From Aeromicrobium sp. IC_218 (GTDB lineage Bacteria; Actinomycetota; Actinomycetes; Propionibacteriales; Nocardioidaceae): DNA of 64,000 nt. Of the stretch, positions 1,260 to 16,221 are shown piece after piece. The position numbers were made by a program, and so were the translations under genes. How positions within the stretch are numbered: the stretch's first letter is position 1; each line of letters opens with the position of its first letter. The notes under the pieces are model-generated. The model was not told where the DNA came from and searched no databases. It worked only from the letters and a program-made list of their open reading frames with translations. Location of the stretch: NCBI RefSeq assembly GCF_004336805.1, contig NZ_SJXM01000005.1, positions 62,001 to 126,000 on the forward strand, given 5' to 3'.

Positions 1260-2600
1260 ATGTCCACCGCGCCCGCCTCCGCGCCACCGGTCAACTCACG
1301 CCGCAAGGTCGTGGCGGCCAGCCTCATCGGCACGACGATCGAGTTCTACGACTTCTACGTCTACGCGACCGCGGCCGTCCTGGTCTTCCCCCACCTGTTC
1401 TTCCCCGAGGGCAACGACACGACGGCGCTGCTGGCCTCGTTCGCCGTCTTCGGCGCGGCGATGGTCGCCCGCCCGCTCGGCGCGATCTTCTTCGGCCACC
1501 TCGGCGACCGCTCCGGGCGCAAGACCACGCTGGTCGCGGCGCTGCTGACGATGGGCGTCGCGACGTTCCTCATCGGCGTCCTGCCGACGTACGCGGCGGT
1601 CGGCTGGTTCGCGCCGTTCCTGCTCGTGCTCATGCGCCTGGCCCAGGGCTTCGCCCTCGGCGGCGAGTGGAGCGGGGCCGCCCTCGTGGCGACCGAGAAC
1701 GCGCCCGAGGGCAAGCGCGCCTGGTACGGCACGTTCCCGCAGCTCGGCGCGCCGCTGGGCTTCATCATCGCCAACGGCCTGTTCCTGCTCATCACCGTCT
1801 GGATGCCGTCGGACGACCCCAGCCGCCCGTCCGACACCTTCCTGGAGTGGGGCTGGCGGCTGCCGTTCCTGTTCAGCGCCGTCATGGTCGCCGTCGGCCT
1901 GTGGGTGCGCCTGAGCCTGGTCGAGAGCCCGGCCTTCACCCGCACGGTCGAGGCCGGCAAGGTGCAGAAGCTGCCGCTCGCCGCCACCTTCCGCGGCTAC
2001 TGGCGCGAGCTGGTGCTCGGCACGTTCTACATGCTCGCGACGTACGTGCTCTTCTACCTGATGACGACGTTCTCGCTGAGCTACGGCCGCGCCGCGGCCG
2101 ACGCCGACACCCCCGGCCTGGGCTACTCGTACAACACGTTCGTGCTGATGATGATCGCGGGCGTCGTGTTCTTCGGGATCTTCACGCTCGTCTCGGGCCC
2201 GCTCGCCGACCGCTGGGGCCGGCGACGCACGCTCATCGTCGTCACCCTGCTCATCATCGTCTTCGGCCTGCTCTGGGTGCCGCTGCTGGACGCCGGCGAC
2301 GTGGGCGTCATGGCCTTCCTGATCATCGGCTTCACCCTCATGGGCTCGACGTTCGGCCCCATGGGCGCGCTGCTGCCCGAGCTGTTCCCGACCGCCGTGC
2401 GCTACACCGGCTCGGGCGTCTCGTACAACGTCAGCTCGATCCTCGGCGCGGCCGTGGCGCCGTTCATCGCCGTCTGGCTGTGGAACGTGGGCGACGGCAG
2501 CCCGTTCTGGGTGGGCGTCTACCTGTCGGCGATGGCCACGCTGACGCTCGTCGCGCTGCTGCTGGGCAAGGAGACGCGCGACCTGGACATCGACCGCTAG
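1260..2600 (+). CDS. MFS transporter, metabolite:H+ symporter (MHS) family
   Basis: Twelve-helix inner-membrane proton symporter of 446 residues, of the type represented by ProP, KgtP and ShiA. The MHS start motif is clear (ASLIGTTIEFYDFYVYATAA, residues about 20-39). The loop 2-3 motif GHLGDRSGRK and the repeat in loop 8-9 (GPLADRWGRRR) are present, as is MRLAQGFALGGEWSGAALVATENAP in helix 5. The likely substrate is an organic acid, betaine or aromatic acid and cannot be fixed from sequence. The ATG at 1260 is preceded by TCGGGAGAACC. It is a single-gene unit ended by a strong hairpin at 2613-2648. Confidence 0.88.
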   Translation: MSTAPASAPPVNSRRKVVAASLIGTTIEFYDFYVYATAAVLVFPHLFFPEGNDTTALLASFAVFGAAMVARPLGAIFFGHLGDRSGRKTTLVAALLTMGVATFLIGVLPTYAAVGWFAPFLLVLMRLAQGFALGGEWSGAALVATENAPEGKRAWYGTFPQLGAPLGFIIANGLFLLITVWMPSDDPSRPSDTFLEWGWRLPFLFSAVMVAVGLWVRLSLVESPAFTRTVEAGKVQKLPLAATFRGYWRELVLGTFYMLATYVLFYLMTTFSLSYGRAAADADTPGLGYSYNTFVLMMIAGVVFFGIFTLVSGPLADRWGRRRTLIVVTLLIIVFGLLWVPLLDAGDVGVMAFLIIGFTLMGSTFGPMGALLPELFPTAVRYTGSGVSYNVSSILGAAVAPFIAVWLWNVGDGSPFWVGVYLSAMATLTLVALLLGKETRDLDIDR

Positions 2601-2767: not shown

Positions 2768-3403
2768 TCACAGCGTGGTGGTCGCGACCTCGGCGTCGAG
2801 GCGCGGCAGGCGCGGGAACCAGGCGTCCGGGCCGGGCTTGCCGATGTTGACGACCATGAAGGTCTGGCGGCCCAGCCCCGCGTGCAGGTCGGCGTCGATG
2901 CCGGCTGCGTCGAAGCCGCCCATCGGGCCCGCGTGCAGGCCCATGGCGCGGACGGCGAGGATGAAGTAGCCGGCCTGGAGCCAGGCGTTGTTGCTGCCCA
3001 CGGCGGCGCGGACCGGCGCGTTGTCGTCGCCGGTGAACATCGCGGCGCGCTCGGGGGCGATCGGGAAGACCGTGCCGAAGTGCTCGGGCCACTCGGTGTC
3101 GAAGCTCAGCACGGCGACCAGCGGGGCGGCCTTCGTCTTGGCGGCGTTGCCCTCGGCCATGTGGCTGACCAGGCGCTCGCGGGCCTCGTCGCTGCGGACC
3201 CAGGTCACGCGCAGCGGCTGGATGTTCATCATCGTCGGGCCCATCTTGGCGAGCTCGTAGATCGCGCGGGCGGTGTCCTCGGAGACGGGCTCGTCGGTGA
3301 ACGTGTTCGCCGTGCGCCCCTCGCGGAACAGCAGGTCGAGGGCGTCGGAGTCGAGGGCGGACTCGGACACCAGGTCGAACCCGGCGCTCTGGTCGATGCT
3401 CAT
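2768..3403 (-). CDS. nitroreductase family protein, malonic semialdehyde reductase (RutE) type
   Basis: FMN-dependent NAD(P)H oxidoreductase of 211 residues. The RutE-like block FREGRTANTFTDEPV, the FMN-contact region MGPTMMNIQPLRVTW and the loop GPMGGFDAAGIDAD are all visible. RutE reduces malonic semialdehyde to 3-hydroxypropionate in pyrimidine (Rut) degradation. No other rut genes are adjacent, so a general aldehyde or quinone reductase role is equally possible. The ATG at 3403 was chosen because AAAGG lies 8-10 bases upstream; an alternative start 15 codons upstream lacks this. The gene is transcribed alone. Confidence 0.82.
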   Translation of the reverse strand: MSIDQSAGFDLVSESALDSDALDLLFREGRTANTFTDEPVSEDTARAIYELAKMGPTMMNIQPLRVTWVRSDEARERLVSHMAEGNAAKTKAAPLVAVLSFDTEWPEHFGTVFPIAPERAAMFTGDDNAPVRAAVGSNNAWLQAGYFILAVRAMGLHAGPMGGFDAAGIDADLHAGLGRQTFMVVNIGKPGPDAWFPRLPRLDAEVATTTL

Positions 3404-3549
3404 GGATGGCCTTTCGTCGGAAGAGCGTACCCATGATTGAACGAGCAACTACCTCGGACGCTTCCCTCTCGGCCGCGTGACAAGGTTCACACCGCAACCA
3501 CCGTCGGACCCCAGTGCCACGGGATGCGCCCCGCTCCCTGACCCGAACC

Positions 3550-3615: not shown

Positions 3616-5079
3616 TCAGAACGGGTAGCCGGCGTGGCCGTCCTTCTGCACCGTCATCCAGCGCATCTCGGTGAACGAGTCGACGCCGGCGTCGCCGCCG
3701 AACTTCCCGTAGCCCGAGCTCTGCACGCCGCCGAAGGGCGCGAACGGCTCGTCGTTCACCGACTGGTCGTTGACGTGCACGATGCCGGTCTTGATCCGCT
3801 CGGCCACGGCCCAGCCGGCGCGCAGGTCCTCGGCGATGACGCCGGCGGTCAGGCCGTACTCGGTCTCGTTGGCCAGCGCGACGGCCTCGTCCGGGCCGTC
3901 GACGGTGTAGACCGCGGTCGCGGCGCCGAAGATCTCCTCGCGGTGCATGCGCATGTCGCGCGTGATGCCCGTCAGGACGGTGGCCTCGAGCAGCGCGCCG
4001 TCCGGCTTGGTGCCGCCGGTGTGCACGGTGGCTCCCTTCTCGACGGCGTCCTGGACGAGCGCGAACTGGCGCTCGGCCGCGCGGACGTTCACCTGGGGGC
4101 CGATCACGGTGCTCGCGTCGGTCGGGTCGCCCGACGGCAGCGCGGCGACCTTGGCGACGAGCTTCTCGGTGAACTCCTCGGCGATCGAGCGGTCGACGAT
4201 GATCCGGTCGGCCGACATGCAGATCTGGCCGGCGTTCATGAACGCTCCGAACGTCGCCGCGTCCACCGCGTAGTCGACGTCGGCCGACTCCAGGACGACG
4301 ACCGAGTTCTTGCCACCGAGCTCGAGCACGGCCGGCTTGAGGTGCTGCGCGGCCAGCGTGCCGATGGTGCGCCCGACGTTGGTCGAGCCGGTGAAGTTGA
4401 CGTTGCGGACGCGCTCGTCGGCGATGAGCGCCTCGACGACCTCGGCGGCGTCGTCGCGGTCGTTGGTGACGACGTTGAGCACGCCGGCGGGCAGGCCGGC
4501 GTCCAGCAGCACGTCGGCCAGGAACAGGCCGCAGGCCAGCGGGGCGTCCTCGCTGGGCTTGAGCACGACGGTGTTGCCCACCGCGAGCGGAACGGCCAGC
4601 GCGCGGACGCCGAGGATGAACGGCGCGTTCCACGGTGAGATCGCCGCGCAGACGCCGTACGGGCGGCGGACGCCGAGCGAGAGCTTGCCGGGCATGTCGG
4701 TGGTCAGCACCTGGCCCTGCACGCCGGTGGCCGCGGTGGCGGCCGAGCGCAGGATGTCGGCGGCCAGGTGGGCGTTGAACCCGGCCCACGGGGCGACGCC
4801 GCCGACCTCGCGAGCCATCAGCTCGACGCCCTCGGCGGTGCGCTCCTCGAGCAGGTCGGCCGCCTTGGCGAAGATGCGCGCGCGCTGGGACGGGCCGGTG
4901 GCCGCCCACCCCTCGAACGCCGCCTCCGCCGCGTCGACCGCGCGGCGGACGTCCTCGGGCCCGGCCGCCGCGACCTGGGCGTAGACGCTCTGGTCCCAGG
5001 GGGAGATGTCGTCGGTCGTGCGTCCGGACGCCGCCGGGACGTGCTCGCCGTTGATGATGAGGTCGCGCTGGATGGTCAC
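3616..5079 (-). CDS. NAD(P)+-dependent aldehyde dehydrogenase (vanillin/salicylaldehyde-type)
   Basis: Soluble aldehyde dehydrogenase of 487 residues that oxidises an aldehyde to its acid. All catalytic elements are present: oxyanion Asn about 151 in SPWNAPF, general base Glu about 253 in LELGGKN, nucleophile Cys about 287 in NAGQICMS. The cofactor block NFTGSTNVGRT is also present. Similarity by eye is to aromatic (vanillin, salicylaldehyde) dehydrogenases. The GTG at 5079 was chosen because GAGAGGA lies 8 bases upstream; a longer frame to 5145 would read through that site. It is the last gene of the TetR-fusion operon, 72 bases after the fusion gene, which suggests it handles an aldehyde from that pathway. 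Confidence 0.9.
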   Translation of the reverse strand: MTIQRDLIINGEHVPAASGRTTDDISPWDQSVYAQVAAAGPEDVRRAVDAAEAAFEGWAATGPSQRARIFAKAADLLEERTAEGVELMAREVGGVAPWAGFNAHLAADILRSAATAATGVQGQVLTTDMPGKLSLGVRRPYGVCAAISPWNAPFILGVRALAVPLAVGNTVVLKPSEDAPLACGLFLADVLLDAGLPAGVLNVVTNDRDDAAEVVEALIADERVRNVNFTGSTNVGRTIGTLAAQHLKPAVLELGGKNSVVVLESADVDYAVDAATFGAFMNAGQICMSADRIIVDRSIAEEFTEKLVAKVAALPSGDPTDASTVIGPQVNVRAAERQFALVQDAVEKGATVHTGGTKPDGALLEATVLTGITRDMRMHREEIFGAATAVYTVDGPDEAVALANETEYGLTAGVIAEDLRAGWAVAERIKTGIVHVNDQSVNDEPFAPFGGVQSSGYGKFGGDAGVDSFTEMRWMTVQKDGHAGYPF

Positions 5080-5151
5080 GGGATGGTCCTCTCGAGGGGA
5101 AGGGAAGCTCTCCTCATCCTCCGCCCGGTCCGGGCCCGGCGACACCCGGGG

Positions 5152-8085
5152 TCACCGGCCCCTCCAGCGCGGCGCCCGCTTCTCGGCGAAGGCGGCCACG
5201 CCCTCCGCGGCGTCCTGCGACGAGATGGCCGGCGCCGCCAGCTCGGACTGCCGGACGAACGCCTCGTCGGCGTCCCAGTGCGGCGCCTCCTGCACGATGC
5301 GCTTGCCGATCGCGACGCTCATCGGCGCGTTCGCCGCTACCCGCTCGGCGAGCTCGATCGCCGCGTCCAGCACCTTCCCGCGCGGGGCGAGGACGTTGAC
5401 CAGCCCGAGCTCGTGCAGCCGCAGGGCGGGCAGCGGGTCGCCGGTCAGCACGAGCTCCATGGCCACGTGGTGCGGCAGCCGCTGGCTCACCCGCATGACG
5501 CCGCCCGCGGCGGCGACCAGGCCGCGCTTGGCCTCGGGCAGGCCGAGCTCGGAGTCCTCCGCCGCCACGATCAGGTCGGCGGCGAGGGCGAGCTCGCAGC
5601 CGCCGGCGAGCGCCGAGCCCTCGACCGCGGCGATCAGCGGCTTGGCCGGCGGACGCTCGGTCAGCCCGAGCGGGCCGCGGTGGTCGCCGTAGGGCAGCTC
5701 GCCCCGGTTCGCCGCCTTCAGGTCCATGCCGGCGCTGAACGTCCCGCCGGCGCCGGTGAGCACGGCGACCCGGGCCGCCGGGTCGGACTCGAACCGGTCG
5801 ATCGCGCGCTCCAGCAGCCGCGCGGTGCGTCCGTCGATCGCGTTGCGCGCCTCGGGACGGTTGAGCGTGATGACGGTGACCTCGCCGCGCTGGTCGACCA
5901 GCACCGGCGACGGCGGCGGCGCGGGCATCTCGTGGACGTCCTGGTCGACGACCTCGAGCCGGCCGTCCTCGGTCACCTCGACCTGCCAGCCGATCGGGTC
6001 GTCGGCCATGAACAGGCCGAGCGTCCGCTGGTCGTCGCGGCGCAGCAGGACGCGGTCGCCCGCAGGGGTCAGCAGGCTGACGACGACCGCCTCGGGCGCA
6101 CCCTCGCGCGACCACGGGATCGTCCAGGTCTCGACCACGGCGGGGCCGGCGTAGGCGCCCAGGGCTCGGCGCGCCGGCGGCAGCTCGACGTGCGGGTGCA
6201 GGTGCTCGAACAGACGCTGCGGCGGCGTGGCCGAGTAGACGCCGAGGGCGTGCTTGGTCGCGTACCAGCCGAGCGACGTCGACAGGCCGTACGCGTCAGG
6301 CTCGGCCCGCAGCAGCGGGACGAGGTTGGCCACGGCGTGGCTGCCGTAGTTGTTGCCCGGACCGCCGCCGAAGGTGAGCCCGCCGGTGACCGTGAGCGGA
6401 CGCTCGGGGTCGTCGTCCGGCAGCCCCAGGGCGTCCGCCGCGATCTGCACAGCCGACGGGAAGCACGCGTAGAGGTCGACGTGGCGGACGTCGTCGATGG
6501 TGACGCCGGCGTGGCCGAGCGCGGCCTCGCCCACCGCCGCGATCGCCGGCGACGTGGCCAGGTCGGCGCGCTCGCTGACGAACCACTCGTCCGACGCCCA
6601 CGCCCCGGCGTGCACGAACACCCACTTCTCCTGCGGGACTCCGGCCGCCTCGGCCGCCGCAGCAGACATCAGCACCAGCCCGGTGCCCATGTCGACGGTG
6701 AGGTTGGCGCACATCAGCTTCGTGTACGGCTCGGACACCATGCGGTTGTCGGCGGCCGGCTCGGCGATGTGCTCGGCCGACGTCCGCTCCGGCTGCCAGG
6801 CGTACGGGTTGCGGGCGGCGACGGCCGAGAACCGCGACCACAGGCCGGCGATGGCCGCGCGGTGCTCCTCGACGCCGCGTCCGCGCCTGCGGCGGACGGC
6901 GTTCTCGATGAGCGAGTAGACGTAGATCGGCGCACTGAGCCCGACGCTCGTCTCGACCTCGTTGTTGGGGCTGGTGTCGACACCCACGACGTCGGTCGGC
7001 GCCACCCCGGCCGCCTGCACCGGCCAGTCGGGGGCCGACCCCGCGCGCTGCAGGCTCGACTGGGTCGCCCCGGCCTCCGCGCCGACGACGAGCGCGACGT
7101 GCGCCTCCCCCTCGGCGATGTAGCGAGCGGCCTCGTTGACGAGCAGCTGGGCCCCGTCGCCGCCGTACGGGCTGGACGCGACGGTGCGCGTCGGCGTGGC
7201 GCCGACCCGTTCCCCCACCAGGGCGGCGGCGTCGGCGTACGTCCAGGACGCGCTCGGGACGGCGAGGATCGTGTCGGCGCTCGCGAGCAGGCCGGGCACC
7301 CCGGCGTCCGCCTCGGCCCGCTGCAGGGCGACCACGGAGAGGGCGGCGGGGTCGGCCGTCGGGTCGAGCCGCCGGTTCACGTGCTGGCCGGCGCCGACGA
7401 GCACCGGGGTGGACGCCGGGATGGTGCGCCCGCTCGCCCGGTGCAGCACCGGGCGGCTGGACGGCGCGCCGCTGACCAGCTGCTCGAGCCGGCCCAGCGA
7501 CTCGTCCAGCTCGCCGCCGAGGCTGCGGACGATCGAGCTGCCCAGCGGGCCCTTGACCGGCTGGCCGTCGAGGCCGGCGTGCAGCGTGACGCGGCTGCCG
7601 CCGCCCGAGGGCCGGACCTGCAGCGCGAGCGCGAGCACCAGGCCCATCGGTCCCTTGCCGCGCAGGTCGAGCGCACCGTCGTCGAACCGCTCGACGGTCC
7701 AGCGGATGTCGGCCGGGATCGCCATGATCGCCGCGTGCTGGACGAACGAGACGCCCACCGCGGCGGCGCCCGGGGTCTCGTCGCGCCAGCCGGTGTGCAG
7801 GGTCAGCCAGTCCGCGACGCTCGACAGGTCGCCGAGCACGTCCAGCACCTGCTCGGGCGGGGCGGCGACGGTGCGCGCGGCGGCGACCCGGTGCGTGAAG
7901 CCGGCGAGCCACTCCGGGACCTCCCCCGCGTCGAGCGCCGCCGGGGCGCCCGCCGGCTCGCGGCCGAGCAGGCCGCTGACGACGTCGCGCAGCATCGCGG
8001 GGTTGCGCGCCACGGTGCCGGCGACCCGCCGGGCACCGGAGAGCAGGGCCCGCAGGCGGCGGGTGTCGAGAGGACGTCGGGTCAT
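5152..8085 (-). CDS. three-domain fusion: SRPBCC - thiolase-like (TLP) - enoyl-CoA hydratase
   Basis: One open frame of 977 codons holding three enzyme-like domains. Residues about 66-205 are an SRPBCC/START-type ligand-binding fold. Residues 226-625 are a thiolase-like domain (TSPNNEVETSVGLSAP, DLYACFPSAVQ, GGLTFGGGPGNNYGSHAV, GWYATKHALGVYS) with a small beta domain to about 715. Residues 726-977 are a crotonase with both oxyanion-hole motifs (FSAGMDLK about 783-790, EGSALAGGCELA about 822-833) and an acidic residue in LPEAKRGL about 850. The thiolase nucleophile Cys is not seen: the matching stretch is SSPYGGDGAQLL (304-315). The ATG at 8085 overlaps the tetR stop by four bases. Probable role: acyl-CoA hydration/side-chain degradation of a bulky or hydrophobic substrate delivered within one chain. 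The substrate is unknown. Confidence 0.85.
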   Translation of the reverse strand: MTRRPLDTRRLRALLSGARRVAGTVARNPAMLRDVVSGLLGREPAGAPAALDAGEVPEWLAGFTHRVAAARTVAAPPEQVLDVLGDLSSVADWLTLHTGWRDETPGAAAVGVSFVQHAAIMAIPADIRWTVERFDDGALDLRGKGPMGLVLALALQVRPSGGGSRVTLHAGLDGQPVKGPLGSSIVRSLGGELDESLGRLEQLVSGAPSSRPVLHRASGRTIPASTPVLVGAGQHVNRRLDPTADPAALSVVALQRAEADAGVPGLLASADTILAVPSASWTYADAAALVGERVGATPTRTVASSPYGGDGAQLLVNEAARYIAEGEAHVALVVGAEAGATQSSLQRAGSAPDWPVQAAGVAPTDVVGVDTSPNNEVETSVGLSAPIYVYSLIENAVRRRRGRGVEEHRAAIAGLWSRFSAVAARNPYAWQPERTSAEHIAEPAADNRMVSEPYTKLMCANLTVDMGTGLVLMSAAAAEAAGVPQEKWVFVHAGAWASDEWFVSERADLATSPAIAAVGEAALGHAGVTIDDVRHVDLYACFPSAVQIAADALGLPDDDPERPLTVTGGLTFGGGPGNNYGSHAVANLVPLLRAEPDAYGLSTSLGWYATKHALGVYSATPPQRLFEHLHPHVELPPARRALGAYAGPAVVETWTIPWSREGAPEAVVVSLLTPAGDRVLLRRDDQRTLGLFMADDPIGWQVEVTEDGRLEVVDQDVHEMPAPPPSPVLVDQRGEVTVITLNRPEARNAIDGRTARLLERAIDRFESDPAARVAVLTGAGGTFSAGMDLKAANRGELPYGDHRGPLGLTERPPAKPLIAAVEGSALAGGCELALAADLIVAAEDSELGLPEAKRGLVAAAGGVMRVSQRLPHHVAMELVLTGDPLPALRLHELGLVNVLAPRGKVLDAAIELAERVAANAPMSVAIGKRIVQEAPHWDADEAFVRQSELAAPAISSQDAAEGVAAFAEKRAPRWRGR

Positions 8086-8726
8086 GCGGAGGCCTTCCGG
8101 GAGGGAGTCGCCAGGTCGTCGGGGGCGAGGTCGCCGAGCAGCACGCGCAGCGCCCGCTTCCAAGCCAGGAGGGTGCGCTGCAGCTCGGCGTCGCGCGCGC
8201 CGAGCACGGCGGTGATCGACAGCCCGGTGAGCAGCTGGACCGTGAACGCGACCAGGAGCGGCACCCGCGGGTCGTCGTCGCCGTCCGTGGCAAGGACGGC
8301 CTCGAGCCCGCTCTGGATGCTGCCGAGCAGGTGGGGCTGCTCGCGCGCGAGGGCCTCGCGCAGGCTCGCGTCGGTCCGGGCCGCGCCCCACAGCTCGAGC
8401 AGGGCGTGGAAGGTGGGGCTGCTGAGGTCGGCCCAGACGGCGTCGACGAACGCGTCGAGCCGCTCGGCGGCGTCACCGGCGGCGGCCTGCTGGGCCTGGG
8501 CGACCCGCTGGGTGACCAGGTGCCCGACGGCGGCGGAGACCAGGTCGGCCTTGGCCGGGAAGTGGTGGAGCAGGGTGCCGCGGGCCATGTCCGCCCGCTT
8601 CTGCACCTCGCCGATCGAGAACCCGGCGTACCCGTTCTCGAGCAGGCAGGCCACGGCGGCGTCCAGGACGCGCGCCCGTGTGGTGGCGCGCCGGTCCTCC
8701 TGCGTGCGGCGGGTGGTCTCGGTCAC
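8082..8726 (-). CDS. TetR/AcrR family repressor of the fusion-ALDH operon
   Basis: Regulator of 214 residues. The N-terminal helix-turn-helix is clear (ARVLDAAVACLLENGYAGFSIGEVQKRADMARGTLLHHFPAKADLV, residues about 19-63), followed by an all-helical ligand-binding half. It is the first gene of the unit: its stop overlaps the fusion start (ATGA). It therefore very likely autoregulates and controls the downstream catabolic genes. GTG start at 8726. An ACCGTACGGT palindrome overlaps the presumed -10 box just upstream. Confidence 0.88.
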   Translation of the reverse strand: MTETTRRTQEDRRATTRARVLDAAVACLLENGYAGFSIGEVQKRADMARGTLLHHFPAKADLVSAAVGHLVTQRVAQAQQAAAGDAAERLDAFVDAVWADLSSPTFHALLELWGAARTDASLREALAREQPHLLGSIQSGLEAVLATDGDDDPRVPLLVAFTVQLLTGLSITAVLGARDAELQRTLLAWKRALRVLLGDLAPDDLATPSRKASA

Positions 8727-8734
8727 GAGAACAA

Positions 8735-8744
8735 ACCGTACGGT
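8735..8744. promoter_or_regulatory. candidate TetR operator overlapping the -10 box
   Basis: Perfect 10-bp palindrome ACCGTACGGT. On the minus strand it contains TACGGT, which ends 8 bases before the tetR GTG. A repressor bound here would block the promoter of the tetR-fusion-ALDH unit. Inferred from position and symmetry only. Confidence 0.45.
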
Positions 8745-8751
8745 CGGACTG

Positions 8752-10775: not shown

Positions 10776-10809
10776 TCCACGCACGCTCGCGGATGCGCGC
10801 GGATGCAGA

Positions 10810-10881
10810 GCCCCCGACAGGAGTCGAACCCGCGACATCCTTATTACAAGTAAGGCGCTCTACCAACTGAGCTACGGGGGC
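10810..10881 (-). tRNA. tRNA-Thr, anticodon UGU
   Basis: Full cloverleaf of 72 nt on the minus strand. The acceptor stem is GCCCCCG with CGGGGGC. The D arm is GCTC/GAGC, the anticodon stem CCTTA/TAAGG, and the loop CTTGTAA gives anticodon TGT. The T arm carries TTCGACT. It reads ACA threonine codons, rare in such GC-rich coding sequence. CCA is not encoded. Confidence 0.95.
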
Positions 10882-10969: not shown

Positions 10970-12133
10970 GTGTCCGAGCCCTACGACCGTCTGCTGCGTG
11001 CCACCGCGGACCTGCCGACGCCCTGCGCGATCCTCGACGGGCCCGCCCTGGCGACCAACACCCACGACCTCGTCCGCCGGGCCGGCGGGGTCCCCGTGCG
11101 CGTGGCCTCGAAGTCCGTGCGCGTGCGCGACCTGCTCGACCGCACGCTCGCCCACGACGGCTTCGCCGGCCTCATGACGTACTCGCTGGCCGAGTCCGTC
11201 TGGCTGGCCGACCTGGGCCACGACGACCTGCTGCTCGCCTACCCGACGGCCGACGCCGCCGCGCTGCGCGACCTCGTCGCGTCCGAGCAGCGGCTCGCCG
11301 CCATCATGCTCATGGTCGACTCGCTGGAGCACCTCGACCTGCTCGACGCGCTCGTCGGCACCGACCACCCGCCGATCCGGCTGTGCCTGGACGTCGACTG
11401 CTCGCTGCGCGTCGGGCCGCTCCACCTGGGTGTGCGCCGCTCCCCCGTCCGCACCCCGGAGCAGGCGTCGGCGCTGGCCGCGGCGATCGCCGCCCGGCCG
11501 GGCTTCGAGCTCGTCGGCGTGATGTTCTACGACGCCCAGGTCGCCGGCCTCCCCGACACGTCCCCGGCCGTGCGGCTGGTCAAGAAGCGCTCCAACGACG
11601 ACCTCGCCGAGCGCCGTTCCGCGGTCGTGGCCGCCGTGCGCCGCCACGCCGACCTGGAGCTGGTGAACGCCGGCGGCACCGGCAGCCTCGAGGTCACCGG
11701 CACCGACCCGTCCATCACCGAGCTGACCGCCGGGTCGGGCCTGTTCATGCCGACGCTGTTCGACCGCTACGACGCGTTCCACGCGCGTCCGGCCGCGTAC
11801 TACGCGCTGTCGGTCGTCCGCCGCCCGGCCGACGACGTCGTCACCCTGTTCTCCGGCGGCTACACGGCCAGCGGCCCGGCGAAGGCGTCCCGCGCGCCGA
11901 GCCCGGTCTGGCCCGACGGGCTGTCGCTCATCGGCTCCGAGGGCGCCGGCGAGGTGCAGACGCCGGTCAAGGGCGCGGCCGCCCGCACGCTGCGCCTGGG
12001 CGACCGGGTGCTCATGCGCCACGCCAAGGCCGGCGAGATGTGCGAGCGCTTCGACCGGGTCGCCCTGGTCGACGCGGCCGGCGACGTCGAGCTGCTGCCC
12101 ACCTACCGCGGCGAGGGGAAGAACTTCGGATGA
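10970..12133 (+). CDS. PLP-dependent amino acid deaminase/aldolase (D-threonine aldolase-like)
   Basis: Fold-type III PLP enzyme of 387 residues, with an alanine-racemase-like N-terminal barrel and a C-terminal D-serine dehydratase-like domain. The PLP lysine lies in RVASKSVRVR (about residue 48). NAGGTGSLEVT is the phosphate-binding loop. The metal-binding C-terminal His/Cys pair appears in RVLMRHAKAGEMCERF. Known family members deaminate D-serine or cleave D-threonine. It is translationally coupled (ATGA) to the FAD oxidase downstream, a pairing I associate with other actinobacteria, so the product may feed that enzyme. The start is set by a leaderless -10 box. Confidence 0.82.
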   Translation: MSEPYDRLLRATADLPTPCAILDGPALATNTHDLVRRAGGVPVRVASKSVRVRDLLDRTLAHDGFAGLMTYSLAESVWLADLGHDDLLLAYPTADAAALRDLVASEQRLAAIMLMVDSLEHLDLLDALVGTDHPPIRLCLDVDCSLRVGPLHLGVRRSPVRTPEQASALAAAIAARPGFELVGVMFYDAQVAGLPDTSPAVRLVKKRSNDDLAERRSAVVAAVRRHADLELVNAGGTGSLEVTGTDPSITELTAGSGLFMPTLFDRYDAFHARPAAYYALSVVRRPADDVVTLFSGGYTASGPAKASRAPSPVWPDGLSLIGSEGAGEVQTPVKGAAARTLRLGDRVLMRHAKAGEMCERFDRVALVDAAGDVELLPTYRGEGKNFG

Positions 12134-13518: not shown

Positions 13519-14190
13519 CTAGCGGCGGAGGAAGTGGCGGGCCAGGCGGTTGCCACCGAACTGCACGAGCTGGACGATCACGACGATGATCACCACGGCC
13601 GTCCACGTCACCACCGTGTCGAACTGGCGGTAGCCGTACTGCAGCGCGAAGCCACCGATGCCGTCGCCGCCGATGACCGAGGCGATCGCCTGCATGTCGA
13701 TGACGGCCACGAACGCGAACGTGTAGCCGAGCACCAGCGGGCCGAGGGCCTCGGGCAGGGCGACGGTGCGCAGGATCCGCAGGCGGCTGGCGCCCATCGA
13801 GCGGGCCGCCTCGATGACGCCCGGCTGCACCGTCACGAGGTTCTGCTCGACGATGCGCGCGATGGCGAACATCGAGCCGACCACCATGGCGAAGACCAGC
13901 GCCCGGTTGCCGATGCCGGTGCCGACCACGGCCCTCGCCGCCGGCTGCACGGCGGCGATGAGGATGACGAACGGGATCGGCCGGAAGAAGTTGACCAGGA
14001 CGTTCAGCACGGCGCTGACGACCTTGTTCTGGTACAGCCCGCCGGGACGGCTGACGTAGAGGCCGACGCCGAGCAGCAGGCCGAGCAGGCCGCCGATCAG
14101 CATGACCAGGGCGACGATCCACAGGGTCGAGACGGTGTTCTGCCACACCAGGTCCCACAGCTCGGGCAGGCGGGTCTCGCGCGTGCTCAT
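13519..14190 (-). CDS. metI: methionine ABC transporter permease MetI
   Basis: Integral membrane permease of 223 residues with about five helices. The binding-protein-dependent transport (EAA) loop is visible as GVIEAARSMGASRLRILRTVALPEALG (about residues 125-150), which docks on MetN. The N-terminus ELWDLVWQNTVSTLWIVALVMLIGG and the TFAFVAVIDMQAIASVIGGDGIGGFALQYGY segment are typical of MetI. Its ATG overlaps the metN stop (ATGA). It is the last gene of metQ-metN-metI. Confidence 0.92.
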   Translation of the reverse strand: MSTRETRLPELWDLVWQNTVSTLWIVALVMLIGGLLGLLLGVGLYVSRPGGLYQNKVVSAVLNVLVNFFRPIPFVILIAAVQPAARAVVGTGIGNRALVFAMVVGSMFAIARIVEQNLVTVQPGVIEAARSMGASRLRILRTVALPEALGPLVLGYTFAFVAVIDMQAIASVIGGDGIGGFALQYGYRQFDTVVTWTAVVIIVVIVQLVQFGGNRLARHFLRR

Positions 14191-15212
14191 GCCAGCTCCT
14201 CCGTCCGCACCAGGCGGCTCACGGCCGCCACCGCCTCCTGCACGCGCGCCGGCTCACCGGTGAGCGCGAGGGTCAGGTTGCCGAACGTCGCGCCCTGGAC
14301 GCGCTCGATGCCGCCGTGGACGAGCTCGAACCGGACGTCGCGGTCGAGCAGCTCGGCGAAGACCTGCGACTGGCCCGGGGACCCCTCGCGGAACTCGAGC
14401 GTGACGAGCCGGCGGTGACGCTGGCGCAGGTCGTCGAGCACCTCGCCCGCGGGCACGGTGTCGACCACGGTGCCCACGAACCGCTTGGTGACCGCGTGCT
14501 GCGGCTCGGCGAAGACGTCCTTGACCAGGCCGCGCTCCACGACCAGCCCGTCCTCCATCACCGCGACCTTGTTGGCGATGGAGCGCACGACGTCCATCTC
14601 GTGGGTGATGACCACGACGGTGATGCCCAGCTCGCGATTGACCCGGGCCAGCAGGTCCAGGACCTCCTGGGTGGTGTCGGGGTCGAGCGCGCTGGTGGCC
14701 TCGTCGGCGAGCAGCAGCTTGGGGCTCGTGGCGAGCGCGCGGGCGATGCCGACGCGCTGCTTCTGCCCGCCCGAGAGCTGCTCGGGGTACTGGTGCGCCT
14801 TGTCGGCCAGGCCGACGAAGTGCAGCAGCTCGCTGATCCGCTGCTGCTGCTCGGCGCGACCGACGCCGGCGACCTCGAGCGGGTAGGCCAGGTTGCCCCA
14901 GACCGTCCGCGAGTGCAGCAGGTTGAACTGCTGGAAGATCATGCCGATCCCGAGCCGGACGCGCTGCAGCTGACGCTCCTTGAGCCCGGTCAGCTCGACG
15001 CCGTCGACGGTCACGGAGCCCGAGGTGGCCGGCTCCAGCGCGTTGACCAGACGGACGAGGGTCGACTTGCCGGCGCCGGAGTAGCCGACGACGGCGTAGA
15101 TGTCGCCGGCCTCGACGTCCAGGTCGACGCCGCGGATCGCGTGCACCGGCTCCCCGCCGCGCTTGGCCGGCGGGTACTCCTTGCGCACGTCGCGTAGCTC
15201 GACGAGTGCCAC
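14187..15212 (-). CDS. metN: methionine ABC transporter ATP-binding protein MetN
   Basis: ATPase subunit of 341 residues. Walker A GYSGAGKST (about 43-51), Q-loop GMIFQQFNLL, signature LSGGQKQRVGIARAL, Walker B KLLLADEATSALD and the switch His in VVVITHEMDV are all present. A C-terminal NIL regulatory domain (about residues 260-341), which binds methionine and inhibits uptake, is also present. Coupled to metI. A GC-rich hairpin lies between metQ and this gene. Confidence 0.95.
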   Translation of the reverse strand: MALVELRDVRKEYPPAKRGGEPVHAIRGVDLDVEAGDIYAVVGYSGAGKSTLVRLVNALEPATSGSVTVDGVELTGLKERQLQRVRLGIGMIFQQFNLLHSRTVWGNLAYPLEVAGVGRAEQQQRISELLHFVGLADKAHQYPEQLSGGQKQRVGIARALATSPKLLLADEATSALDPDTTQEVLDLLARVNRELGITVVVITHEMDVVRSIANKVAVMEDGLVVERGLVKDVFAEPQHAVTKRFVGTVVDTVPAGEVLDDLRQRHRRLVTLEFREGSPGQSQVFAELLDRDVRFELVHGGIERVQGATFGNLTLALTGEPARVQEAVAAVSRLVRTEELA

Positions 15213-15242
15213 GTTCGTCCTCTCGGGGGTGGTGGAAGGACC

Positions 15243-15276
15243 GAGGGGGCGCGGCGCTCGTGGCGCCGCGCCCCTC
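15243..15276 (-). other. intercistronic hairpin between metQ and metN
   Basis: 10-bp GC stem GGCGCGGCGC (15248-15257) with GCGCCGCGCC (15263-15272), extended by a bulged outer stem to 15243/15276. It lies in the 82-base gap between metQ and metN. It could partly terminate or protect the metQ mRNA, giving more binding protein than ATPase. Inferred. Confidence 0.5.
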
Positions 15277-15294
15277 AGGTGTCGTGCGGGTGGA

Positions 15295-16221
15295 TCAGCC
15301 CTTGGCGCGGACGTCGGCCTCGACGTCGGCCAGGGTCTTGCTCAGCTCGTCCACGGGGGTGTCGACGATGACCGCCGTGCCGCCCGAGACCTCCTTGACG
15401 CCGTCGGTGACGGCCTTGGTGTCGTGGTAGATCTTCACGAGCTTCTTCAGCGTCGCGTTGTCCTTGTCCTCGGCGCGGACGGCGAAGATGTTGATGTACG
15501 GCGCCGCGGCCGGGTCGGACGCGTCGTCGGTCGCGATCGCGTCGTCGAAGCTCAGGCCGGCCTTCTCGACGAAGTCGTTGTTGATGATCGCGGCGGCCAC
15601 GTCGGGCAGCGAGGTGGGCGTCAGGTCGGCCTGCAGGGCCTTGACCTTCACCTTCGAGGAGGGCAGGACGTCGTCCAGCGTCGAGTACGGCGAGCCGCCG
15701 TCCTTGAGCTCGATGAGGCCGGCCGTCTGCAGCACGAGCAGGCCGCGGGCCTGGTTGGAGTCGTCGTCGGGCACGACGACGGTCTCGCCGGCCTTGATGT
15801 CCTCGACCGAGTCGTACTTCTCCGAGTACAGCGACAACGGGTAGATCGCCGTGGCGCCGATCGGCGTCAGGTCGTCGTCGTTGGCCACGTTGTACTCGGC
15901 CAGGTAGATGATGTGCTGGAACTGGTTGATGTCCAGCTCGCCCTCGCTGACCGCGGGGTTCGGCTGCGTGTAGTCGGCGAAGTCCTTGACCTCGAGGTCG
16001 ATGTCCTCCTTCGCGGCGGCGTCGACCAGCTCCTCCCAGTACGGGTCGCTGGCGCCGACGACGCCCAGCGTCACCTTCTCGGCGTCCCCGCCGGCGGCGG
16101 AGTCGTCGCCACGGGTGGCGAAGAAGACGATGGCGGCGATCACCAGGAGGGCGACGACGACCGCGGCGGCGACGATCGGGCCGCGGCGCTTGGGAGCCTC
16201 GATGAGGTTCGGCTCGGACAT
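15295..16221 (-). CDS. metQ: MetQ/NlpA family methionine-binding protein, membrane-anchored
   Basis: Substrate-binding subunit of 308 residues for MetNI. The NlpA fold is clear: KVTLGVVGASDPYWEELVDAA, NPAVSEGELDINQFQHIIYLAEYN, ETVVVPDDDSNQARGLLVLQTAGLI. It carries an N-terminal transmembrane anchor (VAAAVVVALLVIAAIVFF, about residues 16-33) after a cytoplasmic KRR. There is no lipobox cysteine, unlike the usual lipoprotein form. AAAGGA lies before the ATG. It heads the met operon. I looked for a SAM riboswitch in its leader and did not see one. Confidence 0.9.
   Translation of the reverse strand: MSEPNLIEAPKRRGPIVAAAVVVALLVIAAIVFFATRGDDSAAGGDAEKVTLGVVGASDPYWEELVDAAAKEDIDLEVKDFADYTQPNPAVSEGELDINQFQHIIYLAEYNVANDDDLTPIGATAIYPLSLYSEKYDSVEDIKAGETVVVPDDDSNQARGLLVLQTAGLIELKDGGSPYSTLDDVLPSSKVKVKALQADLTPTSLPDVAAAIINNDFVEKAGLSFDDAIATDDASDPAAAPYINIFAVRAEDKDNATLKKLVKIYHDTKAVTDGVKEVSGGTAVIVDTPVDELSKTLADVEADVRAKG

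Follow-up and report, generated by a model that had tools for sequence, protein, structure and literature searches.

What is the purpose of a protein that joins a lipid-binding fold, a thiolase fold without the thiolase nucleophile, and an enoyl-CoA hydratase in one chain? The question is raised by a 977-residue protein (P0002) from Aeromicrobium sp. IC_218, encoded in a 64,000-nucleotide stretch of contig NZ_SJXM01000005.1 (positions 62,001 to 126,000), which we refer to in full as the window. We propose that this fusion is probably a single-chain enoyl-CoA hydratase and β-hydroxyacyl-CoA retro-aldolase, equipped with a lipid-holding domain and linked to a TetR regulator. A first-pass annotation of the window had described an uninterrupted frame for all three domains but gave no strand; we confirmed the frame, which lies on the minus strand. 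The domain order is a START-like SRPBCC domain, a thiolase fold resembling thiolase-like protein type 1 (TLP1) with an OB-like C-terminal barrel, and a crotonase, as follows.

5152..8085, minus strand: three-domain fusion coding sequence, 977 amino acids; open frame with an ATG start and without an internal stop
7900..8085, minus strand: variable N-terminal region, residues 1-62, poorly conserved, with two predicted helices (8-27 and 29-39) of low confidence (model pLDDT 36-53 over residues 1-50)
7474..7893, minus strand: SRPBCC/START-like domain, residues 65-204 (PF10604, E = 7.5e-16)
6223..7419, minus strand: thiolase-fold part of the TLP1-like domain, residues 223-621
5962..6195, minus strand: TLP1_add_C domain, an OB-like barrel, residues 631-708
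5155..5904, minus strand: crotonase/enoyl-CoA hydratase domain, residues 728-977 (PF00378 and NF006100, above cut-off)

The three Pfam models Polyketide_cyc2/SRPBCC (residues 65-204, E = 7.5e-16), TLP1_add_C (631-708, E = 8.5e-14), and ECH_1 (734-976, E = 1.7e-50) all matched above their curated cut-offs, in agreement with the domains named in the first-pass annotation; Thiolase_C_1 fell slightly under its own. The NCBIfam crotonase model NF006100 was also above cut-off, and NF006103 (“acetyl-CoA acetyltransferase,” a PRK08257/TLP1-type domain) covered residues 221-710 with 459 bits, under its cut-off of 757. The thiolase fold dominated the listed matches in a structure search with the whole model. 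A search of the host genome with the whole protein returned the protein itself, 12 further crotonase matches, and no second TLP.

Relatives were collected from 341 Nocardioidaceae genomes, using the SRPBCC-TLP part of the window protein as the query, from a phylum-wide sample of 396 genomes, and from a genome scan with at least 581 relatives, of which the 80 highest-ranking were kept (the 80 best loci); gene calls in these relatives are heuristic (GC by codon position plus phmmer) and uncurated. All three domains lie in one open reading frame (ORF) in each of the 30 Nocardioidaceae copies fetched with the SRPBCC-TLP query, the window's own included, and at 78 of the 80 best loci, the other two (L172 and L193) being broken into more than one ORF. 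A sequencing error or chance frame joining two genes is excluded by these counts.

Two short motifs distinguish the thiolase-fold domain.

7159..7164, minus strand: Gly308-Gly309, at the position of the thiolase nucleophilic cysteine
6460..6471, minus strand: Y539-A-C541-F, proposed retro-aldol base and acid

The nucleophilic-cysteine region, residues 304-315, reads SSPYGGDGAQLL. The first-pass annotation had reported the nucleophile missing, and this is borne out by a profile alignment in which Gly309 matches MsTLP1 Gly102, which stands in for the thiolase cysteine (PMC3406046). Both glycines are found in 22 of 22 aligned fusions and in 17 of 17 TLPs (alignment A2). The other thiolase signatures are lost as well, with GGL in place of GHP and LGW in place of CxG, and on the loss of all three we rejected a working thiolase. 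An unusual β-oxidation, in which the hydratase would be paired with a thiolase using some other nucleophile, would suit the acetyltransferase name of the NCBIfam family, itself matched under cut-off. It is nevertheless highly improbable, given the glycine at the nucleophile position, the lost GHP and CxG motifs, the lack of thiolase activity in either direction described for MsTLP1 (PMC3406046), and a set of Pfam matches that includes no 3-hydroxyacyl-CoA dehydrogenase domain.

A Y-x-C-[FY] motif is present in all 90 TLP rows compared (77 of them distinct). In the window protein it takes the form Y539-A-C541-F, which aligns with YDCF of TbSLP; a 2025 paper treats this TbSLP motif as equivalent to Tyr302/Cys304 of CtSal, a steroid aldolase (PMC12329534). 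A Sal-type Y-x-C pair is therefore present at the NEAF position, as shown via TbSLP and not by direct residue comparison with CtSal. The earlier suggestion of a lyase or retro-aldol partner gains support from this correspondence, which reaches CtSal through the literature. Tyr539, Cys541, His583, and Lys611 are invariant in the 22 aligned fusions, and their counterparts Y319, C321, H363, and K391 (numbering of alignment A2) are found in all 17 TLPs. Such retention of an aldolase pair would be unexpected in a noncatalytic scaffold, where the TLP1-like domain would only bind CoA or acyl-CoA and serve to organize two other parts, a functional crotonase and a lipid-holding START-like domain. The missing thiolase residues and the apparently intact crotonase would suit a scaffold, as would MsTLP1, which lacks thiolase activity and binds CoA weakly (PMC3406046), but on balance we consider this role unlikely. 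A slimmer chance attaches to a different CoA reaction of the TLP1-like domain, such as acyl transfer or a slow decarboxylation, or to the fusion serving mainly in sensing via the START domain. No TLP1 has an assigned function, and TbSLP decarboxylates malonyl-CoA slowly; the rate given in PMC12329534 is, however, very low (0.005 per s).

The assignment to TLP1 itself is qualified. The thiolase fold is followed by a TLP1_add_C domain, and a YSCF-type fingerprint replaces NEAF (Y539-A-C541-F, aligned to MsTLP1). An NGG in place of CXG is reported as conserved among the TLP homologues in PMC3406046; MsTLP1 has it, whereas the window protein has L605-G606-W607, and residue 605 is leucine in 74 and valine in 4 of the 78 fusions from the best loci. 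The window protein is therefore a divergent relative, and we class it only as TLP1-like.

The crotonase domain retains two glutamates, at the following positions.

5593..5595, minus strand: Glu831, kept in 22 of 22 aligned fusions and in 77 of 78 from the best loci (one gap)
5533..5535, minus strand: Glu851, kept in 22 of 22 aligned fusions and in 77 of 78 from the best loci (one Gly)

We take Glu831 and Glu851 to be the counterparts of crotonase Glu144 and Glu164, respectively. The domain is 57% identical to PDB 5kjp in a structural alignment, and the EchA1-type hydratases PDB 5KJP, 3QXI, and 6LDZ, which are free-standing, share 56 to 58% identity with it. With both glutamates retained, the fused hydratase looks intact. 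The SRPBCC domain is homologous to the START-like proteins MSMEG_5634 (PDB 7wa9, profile E = 8e-26) and Rv1546 (PDB 8h0h, E = 9e-25), again free-standing. MSMEG_5634 is reported to have a deep, hydrophobic pocket that accommodates acyl-AcpM carrying C36-52 chains (PMC9014085). This homology makes a hydrophobic acyl ligand plausible and lends support to the idea, already in the first-pass annotation, that the SRPBCC part could capture a hydrophobic substrate.

The sequences themselves show the domain architecture, the conserved motifs, the homologies, the repeated presence of TetR and acyl-CoA dehydrogenase genes nearby, and the operator-like site; we infer both activities, the order of the steps, the parts played by the OB-like and START-like domains, and the repression. 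An acyl-CoA dehydrogenase would make a 2-enoyl-CoA, which the crotonase domain would hydrate. Tyr539 would remove the proton from the β-hydroxyl and the C-C bond would break, with no thiolysis by the thiolase-fold domain; Cys541 would protonate the acyl-CoA enolate, yielding an aldehyde or ketone and a short acyl-CoA. The OB-like barrel would occupy the place of the separate DUF35 subunit used by Ltp2 and Sal, the START-like domain would hold or deliver the hydrophobic acyl part, and a TetR repressor bound to an operator just upstream would control the fusion gene. Our guess at the substrate is a hydrophobic acyl-CoA, perhaps with a β-branch that blocks normal β-oxidation. To speculate further, a tertiary β-alcohol formed from such a substrate is not oxidizable to a ketone, which would make sense of a retro-aldol step, and a ketone product would in turn make sense of the flavin monooxygenases found at some loci. 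More tentatively, and as something we hold possible rather than probable, TLP1 may be a family of DUF35-independent acyl-CoA retro-aldolases and the fusion a self-contained machine, with its own lipid-holding domain, that converts 2-enoyl-CoA to an aldehyde or ketone and a short acyl-CoA in an oxidation-free bypass of the last two β-oxidation steps.

Comparison with known systems bears on this proposal. CtShy-CtSal, which acts on bile acid in Comamonas testosteroni, likewise pairs a hydratase with a thiolase-fold aldolase bearing a Tyr/Cys pair, but it consists of two chains, with a MaoC-type hydratase, a zinc-finger DUF35 partner, and a CtSal dimer (PMC12329534); the window protein instead has one chain, a crotonase, a TLP1_add_C domain, and an SRPBCC domain. 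ChsH1-ChsH2-Ltp2, from steroid side-chain degradation, also places a hydratase before an aldolase; Ltp2 has YDHF at the same motif and uses two tyrosines and a DUF35 partner (PMC12329534). TbSLP, from Trypanosoma brucei, stands alone, and its aldolase function is a proposal (PMC12329534). MsTLP1 from Mycobacterium smegmatis (PDB 4EGV) is also stand-alone, without SRPBCC or crotonase, unlike the window fusion. The first-pass annotation had drawn an analogy to steroid side-chain systems with a DUF35 partner. This cannot be taken literally, because the host genome has no match to OB_ChsH2_C (PF01796, the DUF35 OB domain) at an E value of 0.001. The TLP1-like domain has an OB-like barrel of its own at its C-terminal end. 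The absent OB_ChsH2_C match also makes a steroid side-chain role in this host less likely, other steroid genes being unsearched.

Three features lie near the fusion gene in the window.

8082..8726, minus strand: TetR-family regulator (PF00440), whose stop overlaps the fusion start as ATGA (4 nt)
8734..8751, no strand assigned: operator-like palindrome ACCGTACGGTCGGACTGT, matching ACMGTNCGNNCGNACKGT without a mismatch, as no other site in the genome does
3616..5145, minus strand: aldehyde dehydrogenase (ALDH; PF00171), adjoining the fusion here; start perhaps at ∼5079 by the sister gene

Neighbours at the 80 best loci, as raw counts without a control set, comprise TetR-type regulators (32), acyl-CoA dehydrogenases (25), separate crotonases (13; the only hydratase type sought, MaoC hydratases being left out), flavin monooxygenases (8), MHS transporters (7), and ALDH (4). 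By our own reading, a TetR gene is divergent and directly upstream of the fusion at 25 of the 80. A palindrome discovered at three loci (L130, L139, and L169) gave the pattern ACMGTNNGNNCNNACKGT. With those three left out, a site with at most one mismatch lies near the fusion start at 20 of 22 divergent-TetR loci, L127 (three mismatches) being the clear exception. Such a site occurs in none of 480 control windows and at 2 of the 55 remaining best loci. The latter two (L123 and L134, Thermocrispum) have a one-mismatch site upstream of the fusion without a listed divergent TetR; the neighbour search may have overlooked a regulator nearby. The perfect site in the window is directly upstream of tetR, and a sister genome (G080) has one at the same place. 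Across the host genome the pattern has one perfect site and three with a single mismatch, versus two for a reversed control, which gives no grounds for claiming a wider regulon. At four Actinoplanes/Amorphoplanes loci the interval between the fusion and its divergent TetR holds a second palindrome, GTGACCCAGGTCAC in L179, L195, and L201 and GTGACCCGCGTCAC in L188, ∼180 to 210 bp upstream of the fusion match.

The first-pass annotation had envisaged a TetR-controlled unit of fusion and ALDH. Its TetR part recurs (32 of 80), but the ALDH is near at only 4 of 80 loci, and in the sister genome (locus L104) GNAT and SAP-domain genes on the opposite strand separate it from the fusion. A further set of 20 relatives has an ALDH nearby in 3, the sister among them, and we rejected fusion plus ALDH as a conserved unit.

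Acyl-CoA dehydrogenases scoring above 80 bits number 20 among 101 stretches, and 17 of these form one family, 62 to 100% identical to that of L117 (itself counted); two of the 17, at L113 and L187, are probably one gene. In Nocardioides and Amycolatopsis the gene shares the strand of the fusion and lies downstream of it; in Nocardia and Actinoplanes it is upstream and on the other strand. The family occurs in 291 of the 341 genomes, which makes a phylogenetic profile uninformative, so that position alone counts as evidence. At four loci (L145, L178, L184, and L192; Actinophytocola and Haloechinothrix), TetR, acyl-CoA dehydrogenase, and separate crotonase genes precede the fusion on the same strand. 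The recurrent acyl-CoA dehydrogenase neighbour, together with the TetR-linked, patchy distribution, looks catabolic and argues against the synthetic direction, in which an acyl-CoA would add to an aldehyde in an aldol reaction and the crotonase would dehydrate the product to an α,β-unsaturated acyl-CoA. The same residues would serve in that direction, and thiolase-fold enzymes often build C-C bonds. The SRPBCC relative MSMEG_5634 binds a biosynthetic acyl-AcpM (PMC9014085), but Sal and Ltp2 are described as cleaving (PMC12329534), and we regard synthesis as very unlikely.

Matches to the SRPBCC-TLP query were found in 93 of the 341 Nocardioidaceae genomes, with 52 rows spanning SRPBCC into the TLP part by our own count; of these, G616 has an internal stop and G035 starts at residue 161, close to a contig end. 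Across the phylum sample, a TLP match is present in 48 of 396 genomes, but it begins at the SRPBCC start in just two, the window genome and G382, so the fusion is patchy. The sister protein is 93% identical to the window protein over residues 1-730, and the 78 single-ORF fusions at the best loci come from Nocardia, Nocardioides, Aeromicrobium, Amycolatopsis, Thermocrispum, Actinoplanes, Antrihabitans, Hoyosella, and others.

The association of TLP with crotonase takes four forms: fusion in the three-domain clade; L045/L103, which the TLP tree places as sister to that clade and where a free crotonase gene follows the TLP gene and no SRPBCC was found within 16 kb; a second TLP-crotonase fusion clade of ∼800 residues without SRPBCC (L014, L013, L207, and others), whose TLP part is 36 to 38% identical to the window protein; and L212, where a crotonase gene adjoins the TLP gene. 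MsTLP1 scores 614 bits against L014, 224 against the window protein, and 226 against L055; by these scores it belongs near the second clade, much closer than to the window protein. Weighing against such a coupling of TLP and crotonase, 17 of 20 chosen TLP stretches outside the three-domain clade have no fused or adjoining crotonase (MaoC hydratases unsought). In the TLP tree, stand-alone TLPs separate the two fusion clades (branches 0.997 and 0.99). The ECH tree puts the free L045 crotonase together with L145, within the three-domain set and not beside it, and joins that of L212 to the set on a long branch. The midpoint root and the ECH tree are poorly supported (0.38 and 0.47), and the trees are compatible with either one old fusion with losses or two independent fusions.

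The three-part architecture is not peculiar to Aeromicrobium sp. IC_218. The open-access literature, with most subscription papers and all preprints outside the search, yielded neither a description of the fusion nor an aldolase proposal for TLP1. TLP1 proteins and thiolase-fold aldolases are already known; what appears to be new is the fused machine and the assignment of this chemistry to TLP1-type domains. The proposal offers a concrete, testable function for a family whose first structure, in 2012, came without an activity. If it is true, many actinobacteria also achieve hydration and retro-aldol cleavage, so far described for a multisubunit steroid side-chain device, with a single polypeptide that needs no DUF35 and probably takes other substrates. 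A set of proteins whose current annotation is acetyl-CoA acetyltransferase would then be explained, and a compact enzyme for breaking or making C-C bonds would be at hand.

Elsewhere in the window, a nitroreductase-fold protein (2768-3448, minus strand), above the NCBIfam cut-off for malonic semialdehyde reductase, adjoins the ALDH, and beside it lies an MHS-type metabolite/H+ symporter (1260-2600, plus strand); sister genome G080 has the block as well. A tRNA gene (10809-10881, minus strand) is the only Rfam match above gathering score in the window. A protein with an alanine-racemase N-terminal domain (10970-12133, plus strand) weakly resembles the 3-hydroxy-D-aspartate aldolase BhcC (58 bits, cut-off 690). 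Three genes at 13519-16221 (minus strand) resemble those for a methionine-type ABC transporter (MetI, MetN, and MetQ/NlpA), each with its best NCBIfam match under the cut-off.
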